From NCBI GenBank assembly GCA_029245345.1, contig JAQWPM010000007.1, positions 1 through 64,000 on the forward strand: a DNA stretch of 64,000 bases, given 5' to 3'. This document shows positions 21,327 through 26,333 of this stretch, piece after piece (the stretch's first letter is position 1; the number at the start of each line of letters is the position of its first letter). The DNA comes from Longimicrobiales bacterium. Lineage in GTDB: Bacteria; Gemmatimonadota; Gemmatimonadetes; Longimicrobiales; Gaopeijiaceae. Both the position numbers and the translations under genes were made by a program. The notes under the pieces are model-generated. The model made no database searches. It was not told the origin of the DNA and saw nothing but the letters and a program-made list of their open reading frames with translations.

Positions 21327-21602
21327 ATGAGCTCGACCCCTATTGAGCGCCTGAACGAAGCCCTTTCAGTCCGTTATGTCATTGAGGGGGAACTGGGCGA
21401 AGGCGGGATGGCCACCGCCTACCTCTCGGACGACCTCAAGCACAAGCTGGCCGCGGTCGGCGGAACCGAGGTTGGCACGGCGCCGTCGGAGTTCGTCCGA
21501 GTCCAGGACTGGATCGAAGAGCTGCGGGAGCGCCTGGGGAACGAGCACCCCGGATACAAAAAAGGGCGGGCCCCGTTCTGGAGCCCGCCCCGCATCGCCT
21601 GA
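21327..21602 (+). pseudogene. collapsed Ser/Thr protein kinase (both ends, no middle)
   Basis: A 91-codon frame. The first 40 residues are the start of a PknB-type kinase domain: LNEALSVRYVIEGELGEGG with the glycine-rich loop, MATAYLSDDLKHK. The segment with the catalytic Lys (normally VALKVL) is missing and the frame jumps to LAAVGGTEV. It continues with VRVQDWIEELRERLGN, which looks like the very end of kinases carrying TolB/WD40-like repeats. So about 2 kb of the gene seems deleted in frame. The last residues run into the neighbouring terminator. It cannot be an active kinase. Confidence 0.6.
21558..21590 (-). terminator. intrinsic terminator of the OsmC-family gene
   Basis: Reading the minus strand, GGGCGGGC (21590-21583) pairs with GCCCGCCC (21571-21564), followed by six T (21563-21558). 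This 8-bp GC stem with T-run is a textbook rho-independent terminator, 25 nt after the stop of the OsmC-family gene. Its preservation argues that the gene is still expressed. Confidence 0.8.
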
Positions 21603-21614
21603 ACCAGCGGTCGC

Positions 21615-22079
21615 CTACGCCTTGAGCACGAAGTCCGTCGTGATGTCGATGGCTTTGTACATCGATCGATACACAGGGCATTTGTTCGCGTGCATGTCGT
21701 GCACCCGCTGCACCGTCTCACGATGCTCTTCCCCGGCCTTGAGGTGGTACGTGACGTGGATCCGTTTCACCACGATCACGCCGTCGTCTTCCTTCTCGAC
21801 CTCGCCCTTTACCTGACCGATCAGGGCACCGTCACTCGCATTGATCCCGCGCGCCTCCAGCGCGCCTCCGAAGGTCCCCGCTAGTCAGCCACCCGCGGCG
21901 GCCATCATGTAGTCGAGGGTGGTCGTGATCTGGCGCTCGGGGTCGACCCCGTAGTGCTCGGCGATCGCGCTGTGCACGCCGAACTCGACGGGACCGTCGT
22001 GGGCGGGCAGCCAGGCGTGCCGGTGAGGTCCCTTCAACCGCTCGATCTTGATGTCGGCGGTGTAGACGACGTCGGACAT
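21615..22079 (-). CDS. OsmC-family peroxidase, candidate selenoprotein (UGA at codon 65)
   Basis: 154 codons from the ATG at 22079 (AGGAG 4 nt upstream) to TAG at 21615, interrupted only by TGA at 21885-21887 (codon 65). The part before it reads YTADIKIERLKGPHRHA, PVEFGVHSAIAEHYGVDP, TTTLDYMMAAAGG. The part after it reads LAGTFGGALEARGINASDG, VEKEDDGVIVVKRIHVTY and ANKCPVYRSM with the family's second Cys. In OsmC/Ohr-like proteins the position of the UGA holds the reactive Cys (AAAGC-L-x-GTFGGALEARGI), so reading it as selenocysteine restores a complete protein. OsmC-like selenoproteins are known from metagenomic surveys. Function: thiol-type reduction of organic or hydrogen peroxides in the cytoplasm. 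The alternative is a TGC-to-TGA nonsense mutation. Confidence 0.75.
21849..21865 (-). promoter_or_regulatory. candidate bacterial SECIS hairpin
   Basis: On the minus strand, 25 nt after the in-frame UGA the apical loop UGGAG begins, closed by a perfect 6-bp stem GCGCGC/GCGCGC. Bacterial SECIS elements have the loop 16-37 nt after the UGA, a stem of at least 4 bp, and a G in the first two loop positions; all three hold. The hairpin falls on the conserved codons for ALEARG, so GC-rich coding could produce it by chance. Confidence 0.5.
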
Positions 22080-22164
22080 GAGGCTCCTGTGTGAGATGAG
22101 CCCCGATGGTAGACCGGGCACACCCCCATGGAAAGAGGGCGAGGAGTCGAACCCCAGCGGACCT

Positions 22165-22844: not shown

Positions 22845-25800
22845 GTGCGGAAGTGGAGCCTTTTGTCGATTCCTTACGTCGAGTTGCACTGCCACTCGGG
22901 CTTTTCATTCCTGGACGGCGCATCGCACCCTGAAGAACTGGCCGTGCGAGCAGCCGAGTTTGGCTACCCCGCCCTCGCGCTCACCGACCACAACGGCCTC
23001 TACGGCTCCATGGAGTTCGCTCACGCCGCAAGGCGCGTGAACGTCCAGCCCATCACAGGCGCCGAAGTCACGCTTCGGGACTGCTTTCCTGGCGTGGAAG
23101 AGCCGGAAGGCGGCCACCACGTCACTCTCTTGGCCGAAACGCCCCAGGGTTACGCCAATCTGTGCCGCCTGCTCACCGAAGCGCACATGGGTTCGGAGCG
23201 TGGCGACACGCGTTTGGCCCTGCCTTCCCTGCTGGAACTCTCCGAAGGGCTGATTCTGCTGTCGGGATGCGCGCAGAGCCCGGTTGCTGCCGCCATGCGC
23301 TCCTCCGTCGCGGACGGCGAGGCCTTCACCCGCAAACTCCTCGACGTTTTTGGCCCCGGCAGCATGTTTATGGAGCTGCAAGACAATGCGGTGAAAGGAG
23401 ATACCGCCCGTAACAAGACGCTCGCGCGGCTGGCAGGCCGAATGGGCCTAGGTGTCGTCGCAACGAGCAACGTGCACTACCACCGCCCCGAGCGGCATCG
23501 CCTGCAGGATGTGCTCGTTTCCATCAAGAACCGCGCGACGCTCGATGGAGCACACGGGGCCCGAAGGGCCAACAAACTCTTCCACCTCCCCGAGCCCTGG
23601 GATATGCGTCATCGCTTCGAAAGTCGGCCCGAAGCACTCACGAACACACTTCTTATCGCCGAACGATGCGCCGCCTTCGATCTCACCGAAGATCTGGGCT
23701 ATGAATTCCCGGATTTCGAGGGATCGGCTCGTGGTGGAGCGATCGAATCACTCGCCGCGATGTGTTTGGCGAAAATCACGACCCTCTACAAAGACGGCAG
23801 CAAAGAACAACAAGACGCAGAAGACCGTCTACACACGGAGTTGAGGCTCGTGGATCTCCACGGGCTCGCGGGATTTTTTCTCGTGTACCGCGATATCATG
23901 GACTTAGCCGTCAGCGTCGCACGGGACGTTCGCGGTGAGGCCCCGCGGGCCCGTTCTGGCCTCCCTCCAGGCCGAGGCAGGGGATCCTCGGTTTCGTCGA
24001 TCATCTGCTATTTGATTGGCCTTTCACACATCGACCCGGTCAAAAACAACCTGTTTTTGGGCCGATTCCTCAACGAAGCACTCCGTAGCGTCCCCGATAT
24101 CGACCTGGACTTCCCCAGGGACATTCGAGAACAGCTCATTCTTAAGGTCTATGAGAAATACGGGTTCGAGCACACGGCCCTCGTGTGCACGTTTCCCACG
24201 TATCGGCTGAAATCGGCGGTCCGGGAGATCGGGAAATCCCTTGATTTGCCTATGGGAGAACTCGAAAAGCTTTCAAAACTGGCCGAACACCGTTCCGCGT
24301 CAGGCCTGGCCGACGAAATCGCCTCACTTCCGGAGTTCAAAGAGCGTGCGGACGCCGGGCTTTGGAAGCTTTTAGGCGAATTGGCCGAAGACGTAGCCGG
24401 CCTGCCCCGCCATATCTCTCAGCACGTGGGCGGAATGATCATTTCCAGCCGTCCGCTCGTGGAAATCGTCCCGCTCGAGCCCGCCGCCTGGGAAGGCCGC
24501 GTGTTGTGCCAATGGGACAAAGACTCGTGTGAGGACGCGGGTTTTATCAAGATCGACTTCCTCGCGCTCGGCATGTTGTCGCTCATCGAGGAGAGCATCG
24601 ATCTGATCGCGGATCGGCATGGAGAAGCGCCTGATTTGTCCCGAATCGACTTCGAAGACGAGATCATCTACGATCGGGTCTGTTCTGGGGACACCGTGGG
24701 GCTCTTTCAGGTCGAATCTCGAGCCCAAATCCAGATGCTGAGGCGCACCAGACCCCGGAATCTCGAGGATTTGGCGGTTCAGGTCGCCATTGTCCGCCCC
24801 GGGCCCATCGTGGGTGGCGCCGTGAACCCCTATGTCCGGCGCCGGGAGATGCTCAGAGAGAATCCCAACTATGAGATCCCCTACCCGCATCCGCTCCTCG
24901 CAGAGCCGCTCGGGGAGACGCTGGGCGTCATCATCTTCCAGGACCAGGTTTTGACCGTTTGCCAAGCATTGGCAGGCTTTTCGGACGGTCAGGCCGAGTC
25001 CCTGAGGCGCGCGATGAGCCGGAAACGCTCCAAAGAGGCTCTGATAGCCCATTGGGAGGAGTTTCGGGACGGTGCAGCAGCAAATGGGGTCGATGACACC
25101 ACGGCTCGAGAGATCTTTCAGCAAGTCACGGCTTTTTCAGAGTTCGGGTTCCCGAAATCACATGCTGCAGCGTTCGGCCTCCTGGCCTACCAATCCGCGT
25201 GGTTACGCCATTATTACCCCGTCGAGTTCTATGTGGGACTCTTCAACAACCAACCCATGGGCTTCTACTCGCTGGATGCCCTGGGCCGAGATGCACGCCG
25301 GAACGGCATCAAGACGATGCTGCCCCATATCAACCGCAGCCAGGTCGAGTGCATGGCGGAAGGTGACGATTTGCGCATCGGGCTCGGTTTCGTACGGAAT
25401 TGGGGCGCCGACATCGCCACACGGATCGTGGAAGAGCGCGACAAACGAGGCCCCTACATGTCTTTGCCCGATTTTCTGCGCCGAACACCAGCTTCGCTCA
25501 AGCGGCCAGCCATCGAAAACCTCATTTGGGTGGGCGGATTCGAAGAATTCGGCATGACCAGGCGCGAATTGTTGTGGCAAGCAGGCCTTTGGCTCGGCCC
25601 CGAGACCGACAATGACCGCACCGGAGGCCGAGACGACCATGCGCAGACTGAATTAGCCCTCGCGGACCCCTATGCGAGCCTGGCGTTTCCGGCATTGAAC
25701 CCCACGGATCAAATGGTCGCCGAGTACCGCATGATGCGCTTCAGTGCCGACCTCCATCCGCTCACACTGATCAAATCTTCATTACCGGCTGGGACCGTTA

Positions 25801-26333
25801 CTTCGGACCGTCTTCCACACCTCAGGCAGGGCAGCACGGTTCGTGTTGCGGGGCTCGTAACCACACGCCAAAGGCCTGGAACTGCAAATGGCTATGTCTT
25901 TGTTATGATGGAAGATGAGTACGGTCCTATAAACGTGATTGTGAAGCCTGATATCTACAAAAGAGACCGCAATCAAGTGCGTATGGAGCCCTTCCTTTCG
26001 GTACGTGGAAAACTCCAAAAAGATGGCGGAACCCTCAACGTGATCGCCTACGAAGTAGAGGCTCTCCGAGTACCCGGAACTCCCATACGGCGCCGGGGAC
26101 TTTCGCGTACTTACGAAACCTCCAGGGAGGGTGCTGGGCTCACTACTTCAGAGAATGTGGGAAACGGCCTTTCGATGGTCCACGAAGGCCCCGAGTCGGA
26201 CATCGAAGAACTTCCGGGTGCCCTGCCCCCTGTTATGGACACCTGGGCGGACCCGGACCAGAAGGGTCCGACGCCGTTCAGCTACCTGACAGCGCTTCGG
26301 CAGCACGCTCCTGGAGCTAAGAGCTGGAAGTAG
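22845..26333 (+). CDS. dnaE2: error-prone DNA polymerase III alpha subunit (DnaE2)
   Basis: About 1160 residues. The N-terminal PHP domain has VELHCHSGFSFLDGAS and LALTDHNGLYGSMEF. The C-family polymerase core has SVPDIDLDFPRDIRE with the catalytic Asp pair, PRHISQHVGGMI and FGFPKSHAAAFGLLAYQ. A helix-hairpin-helix region and an OB fold (VRVAGLVTTRQRPGTANGYVFVMMEDE) follow. The lack of a long C-terminal tau-binding tail and the length match DnaE2, which does translesion synthesis in the SOS response. Its usual partners ImuA and ImuB are not adjacent. The start is uncertain: GTG at 22845 is given, but TTG at 22863 is nearer to GTGGAG. Confidence 0.93.
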   Translation: MRKWSLLSIPYVELHCHSGFSFLDGASHPEELAVRAAEFGYPALALTDHNGLYGSMEFAHAARRVNVQPITGAEVTLRDCFPGVEEPEGGHHVTLLAETPQGYANLCRLLTEAHMGSERGDTRLALPSLLELSEGLILLSGCAQSPVAAAMRSSVADGEAFTRKLLDVFGPGSMFMELQDNAVKGDTARNKTLARLAGRMGLGVVATSNVHYHRPERHRLQDVLVSIKNRATLDGAHGARRANKLFHLPEPWDMRHRFESRPEALTNTLLIAERCAAFDLTEDLGYEFPDFEGSARGGAIESLAAMCLAKITTLYKDGSKEQQDAEDRLHTELRLVDLHGLAGFFLVYRDIMDLAVSVARDVRGEAPRARSGLPPGRGRGSSVSSIICYLIGLSHIDPVKNNLFLGRFLNEALRSVPDIDLDFPRDIREQLILKVYEKYGFEHTALVCTFPTYRLKSAVREIGKSLDLPMGELEKLSKLAEHRSASGLADEIASLPEFKERADAGLWKLLGELAEDVAGLPRHISQHVGGMIISSRPLVEIVPLEPAAWEGRVLCQWDKDSCEDAGFIKIDFLALGMLSLIEESIDLIADRHGEAPDLSRIDFEDEIIYDRVCSGDTVGLFQVESRAQIQMLRRTRPRNLEDLAVQVAIVRPGPIVGGAVNPYVRRREMLRENPNYEIPYPHPLLAEPLGETLGVIIFQDQVLTVCQALAGFSDGQAESLRRAMSRKRSKEALIAHWEEFRDGAAANGVDDTTAREIFQQVTAFSEFGFPKSHAAAFGLLAYQSAWLRHYYPVEFYVGLFNNQPMGFYSLDALGRDARRNGIKTMLPHINRSQVECMAEGDDLRIGLGFVRNWGADIATRIVEERDKRGPYMSLPDFLRRTPASLKRPAIENLIWVGGFEEFGMTRRELLWQAGLWLGPETDNDRTGGRDDHAQTELALADPYASLAFPALNPTDQMVAEYRMMRFSADLHPLTLIKSSLPAGTVTSDRLPHLRQGSTVRVAGLVTTRQRPGTANGYVFVMMEDEYGPINVIVKPDIYKRDRNQVRMEPFLSVRGKLQKDGGTLNVIAYEVEALRVPGTPIRRRGLSRTYETSREGAGLTTSENVGNGLSMVHEGPESDIEELPGALPPVMDTWADPDQKGPTPFSYLTALRQHAPGAKSWK

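Follow-up and report, generated by a model that had tools for sequence, protein, structure and literature searches.

A gene of the OsmC family in the 64,000-nucleotide stretch of DNA analysed here (the window) consists of 154 codons, and its frame is broken by a single TGA at codon 65. The question it raises is whether this UGA ends the protein or is read as selenocysteine (Sec), as a sequence-only reading of the locus had proposed. Translation of 21615–22079 bore out the frame and recovered the two peptides on which that proposal was built, AAAGG-U-LAGTFGGALEARG and NKCPVYRS. The coordinates given at that time hold; the strand, which had been left out, is the minus strand. The ribosome-binding site and the terminator, both described as intact, could also be located (Table 1).

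Table 1. Coordinates in the window of the gene and of its predicted signals
Feature	Position	Strand	Details and basis
osmC-like selenoprotein gene	21615..22079	minus	ATG 22079-22077, TAG 21617-21615; 154 codons, one in-frame UGA; PF02566 match and homologues
UGA codon 65, predicted selenocysteine	21885..21887	minus (+ strand TCA)	peroxidatic-Cys position of OsmC
Cys134 codon (NKCPVYRS), predicted resolving cysteine	21678..21680	minus	invariance and alignment with 1ukk
AGGAG, Shine-Dalgarno-like site	22084..22088	minus	4 nt 5' of ATG; read from sequence
Intrinsic terminator hairpin	21563..21591	minus	12 bp, 5-nt loop, T tail, 3' of stop codon
Predicted bacterial SECIS hairpin	21849..21865	minus	covariation, isolated-element energy, published model constraints

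The protein belongs to the Pfam family OsmC (PF02566), scoring 54.6 bits against a gathering cut-off of 27.5. The AlphaFold2 model has a pLDDT of 95.4, and a structure search with it returned OsmC/Ohr proteins as the top PDB matches, with E-values down to 6e-9, even though the sequence is only ~10–17% identical to the solved members. A phmmer search started from this protein alone detected no relative of known structure, whereas a profile of the subfamily matched OsmC from T. thermophilus (1ukk, E 3.5e-4) and placed Sec65 on the catalytic Cys and Cys134 on the Cys of its CPVSRAL motif. Cys134 is invariant in both homologue alignments that we inspected. Alignment and model together give an OsmC/Ohr fold carrying two redox residues, with codon 65 at the peroxidatic position, as had been suggested from the sequence, and Cys134 at the resolving one.

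The gene would thus encode a 154-residue thiol (selenol) peroxidase of the OsmC/Ohr fold, in which a SECIS hairpin located 26 nt after the codon would direct SelB and tRNA-Sec to read the UGA as selenocysteine. By analogy with the Ohr/OsmC mechanism, we infer that the selenolate of Sec65 would attack a hydroperoxide, probably an organic one, that the resulting selenenic acid would be resolved by Cys134 to a selenenyl-sulfide, and that a dithiol would regenerate the enzyme. The regenerating dithiol of known Ohr/OsmC proteins is dihydrolipoamide. We consider it probable that the protein is a peroxidase. A genuine selenoprotein with a role other than hydroperoxide reduction, for instance in selenol transfer or in a different redox step carried out by a YhfA-like OsmC protein, is the less likely reading, yet one to be taken seriously: members of the OsmC superfamily are functionally diverse, the protein and its relatives fall under every NCBIfam peroxidase cut-off, and none of the catalytic Ohr residues besides the two redox sites was matched, the conserved Glu of Ohr included. 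However, the protein retains the two redox positions of the OsmC/Ohr peroxidases and has its closest solved folds among OsmC/Ohr proteins, which favours the peroxidase.

If the UGA were a true stop, the gene would be a pseudogene or would encode a 64-residue peptide, with the remainder untranslated. Standard annotation would take the codon in this way, and UGA is the commonest stop in the window (18 of 32 long open reading frames). The homologues speak strongly against it. TGA occupies the codon-65 column in 157 of 157 homologous matches read at the codon level, of which 115 are distinct, the same gene having been fetched twice in some cases; the UGA is therefore not there by chance. Moreover, the frame is conserved beyond the UGA, with about 37–87% protein identity among homologues and the invariant Cys134, and the third codon positions are the most variable across the homologue loci (0.64 vs. 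about 0.36). We regard a true stop as very improbable. A sequencing error at codon 65 is ruled out, as the same codon recurs in many independent assemblies.

Homologues occur in 44 of 98 related genomes; the search yielded 64 matches, each with exactly one TGA. Exactly one TGA was likewise present in every homologue among the matches listed for a sample of 395 genomes of Gemmatimonadota, and TGA was again found in every site-spanning match among those listed for Chloroflexota (301 genomes) and Acidobacteriota (347 genomes); the few matches without TGA in the latter two samples are fragments that do not cover the Sec site. A scan of named genomes extended the homologues to six phyla (Gemmatimonadota, Acidobacteriota, Chloroflexota, Desulfobacterota, Poribacteria and Calditrichota), the chloroflexotal carriers including the cultured Candidatus Lucifugimonas marina. 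The queries were blind to the residue at the site, which was set to X, or to Cys in the 98-genome search, so that a Cys form would have turned up. None was found among the matches listed for the three phyla sampled in this way (about 1,000 genomes); rare, distant Cys forms may escape a sampling by best matches. The site is thus UGA and not TGC throughout the aligned homologues, and the Cys-containing OsmC paralogues present in the relatives belong to other subfamilies. As far as sampled, Sec in this subfamily appears never to have been swapped for Cys. The protein tree largely tracks phylum (8 label changes against a minimum of 6, the few columns limiting its resolution), and this order suggests an old, mainly vertical descent.

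The source genome, that of a Gemmatimonadota bacterium and 98% complete in 30 contigs, encodes the whole machinery for selenocysteine: selA (548.8 bits), selB, selD and a tRNA-Sec with the anticodon TCA (C2:136553; 65.1 bits). Together with a UGA that stands in frame where a redox Cys is expected and that is conserved in homologues, this is what is expected of a bacterial selenoprotein gene. The selD gene itself (L019, G000:C24:30597-31520, minus strand) has a UGA at its catalytic GAGUACK motif, a known selenoprotein position, and thereby constitutes a second, unrelated UGA-Sec gene of the genome. A further one lies on another contig (L052:2960-3403, plus strand). It is an OsmC-like paralogue with 39% identity to the first gene (59.2 bits to PF02566), whose UGA at codon 64 is homologous to codon 65 and whose downstream hairpin is a compensated GCA/GTG variant.

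The gene also follows selenium use across genomes. Among the 98 related genomes, selA occurs in 42 of the 44 carriers and in 19 of the 54 non-carriers (Fisher p = 1.8e-10, treating related genomes as independent, with no phylogenetic correction). The two carriers in which no selA was found are fragmented assemblies, and each has a tRNA-Sec gene of 93 nt (77.7 and 66.8 bits), whereas six selA-negative non-carriers yielded either no match or 82–85-nt matches below 50 bits, which are probably other tRNAs. All 15 carriers picked mainly from other phyla possess selA.

The sequence after the UGA contains a SECIS-type hairpin, 26 nt past the codon, of 7 bp with a GGA loop (or of 6 bp with a UGGAG loop), which is present in 85 sequences and was recovered unprompted by RNAalifold. 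In the 7-bp form, 99.5% of the alignment cells are paired; shuffled alignments reach 95.3%, and sliding the partner strand lowers the figure to 68.7% or less; compensatory double-changed cells number 31, against 6.2 in the shuffles. This covariation is carried by codon choice. When both +8 and +11 are Ala, the pair GCG/GCG predominates (75 rows); when one of them is Val, the remaining Ala is encoded by GCA at +8 in 18 of the 19 rows with Val at +11, and at +11 in all 16 rows with Val at +8, while GCA makes up about 10% of the background Ala codons. The independent compensatory events behind these counts are few, with one supported event for each of two pairs. The folding energy of the 45-nt fragment after the UGA is no better than that of shuffled sequence (z 0.44), and the minimum-energy fold of this fragment from the window differs from the 7-bp hairpin. 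As this energy is uninformative, the case for a SECIS element is built on covariation together with the 21-nt element taken in isolation, which has an MFE of −12.8 kcal/mol. Three Chloroflexota sequences lack the 7-bp helix, and the other hairpin considered for them does not outscore shuffled sequences. Published constraints for bacterial SECIS elements are a loop of 3–9 nt with a G in the first two positions, a stem of 4–16 bp, a spacing of 16–37 nt and an MFE of −7.5 or lower (PMC13188914, Figure 2 legend). The hairpin found here lies within all of them in loop, stem and spacing, and so does the isolated element in energy.

That the UGA stands for another amino acid, by decoding as Trp, by near-cognate readthrough or under a genetic code altered across the genome, is mechanically possible in an open frame under TGA=W but highly improbable, given that the site is the redox-Cys position, that the gene tracks selA and tRNA-Sec, that the SECIS hairpin covaries and that TGA terminates other genes in the window, the last of which led us to reject genome-wide recoding. 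Selenocysteine is very likely what UGA codon 65 inserts, a conclusion drawn from genomic data and backed by the machinery, the UGA-only relatives, the other UGA genes of the genome and the covarying hairpin.

Gene neighbourhoods at 80 named loci gave no functional clue besides an error-prone DNA polymerase gene, which is paired divergently with the osmC gene at 14 of them. In the window, this dnaE2-like gene lies at 22845–26333 (plus strand). An open reading frame of 91 amino acids at 21327–21602 (plus strand), without a Pfam match, starts like the N-terminus of a bacterial Ser/Thr kinase (YVIEGELGEGGMATAYLSDDLKHKLAAV) and then diverges; it is probably a gene remnant. A search for a plasmid homologue of the osmC-like gene found none. 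Two other loci came to light in the surveyed genomes. In the genome G093, which is of the same class as the source bacterium, a separate YhfA-like OsmC gene (L195:717-1100, plus strand; 48 bits to NF041052) has its UGA at AALGSUMSMT and is apparently an independent Sec-OsmC lineage. In one genome sampled from Chloroflexota, an OsmC selenoprotein gene is split (L194, G547:C29, minus strand): its N-terminal half (3166-2972) and its C-terminal half (about 811-584) are separated by about 2.2 kb with a long opposite-strand open reading frame. The break adjoins the Sec site, and the split may reflect either a disrupted gene or a misassembly.

On balance, we favour the view that the gene represents an ancient, obligately Sec-containing OsmC/Ohr subfamily that spans at least six phyla in two paralogue groups, has no Cys form, is missed by current family models and would usually be truncated in annotation. 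Cys homologues exist for nearly all selenoprotein families (PMC13188914), and a seemingly Sec-only subfamily would therefore lend itself naturally to testing why selenium is retained. The subfamily would also tie a widespread protein of the peroxide-defence type to the selenium supply in Gemmatimonadota, Acidobacteriota and Chloroflexota. To our knowledge, selenoproteins have been little discussed in these three phyla. Standard annotation would truncate or miss the genes, and the alignments obtained here could seed an NCBIfam model and a SECIS profile.

OsmC-like selenoproteins had been reported in metagenomic surveys, as the sequence-only reading noted: three sequences with the motif UxxT from the Sargasso Sea in 2005 (PMC1088965, Table 3) and five Sec sequences in the 2008 GOS survey (PMC2398784). 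The family has since been entered as COG1765/YhfA (PMC9312934) and as PF02566 (PMC13188914), each time with UxxT. Like the present proteins, its members belong to the OsmC superfamily, have Sec in place of the catalytic Cys and carry a bacterial SECIS element after the Sec codon. Here, by contrast, each of the 115 distinct rows reads U[LM]xGT (U-x-x-x-T), without T at the UxxT position, and Cys forms, which have been counted for the Sargasso/GOS family, were not found. The separation relies on the published motif and description, and the 2005 sequences may belong to the same branch. In the publications consulted on OsmC-like selenoproteins, we found no description of this branch or of its apparent Sec-only state.

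The NCBIfam model OsmC_like_Se (NF041052) is the best or joint-best NCBIfam match for most proteins of the subfamily and has the OsmC fold in common with them. However, the gene product scores 21.8 bits, related Sec proteins 22.5–30.4 bits and the second paralogue of the genome 29.1 bits against a cut-off of 95, and the best matches of the model in the relatives are Cys proteins without UGA. We rejected the name for the family, as scores of about 22–30 bits lie too far below that cut-off. With the Ohr/OsmC organic-hydroperoxide peroxidases (2onf, 1ukk and 4xx2), the proteins share the fold and the peroxidatic and resolving positions, the difference being Cys there and selenocysteine here. OsmC-like selenoproteins have thus been a known kind since 2005; what is new is a broad, apparently Sec-only subfamily that lies far under the OsmC_like_Se cut-off.
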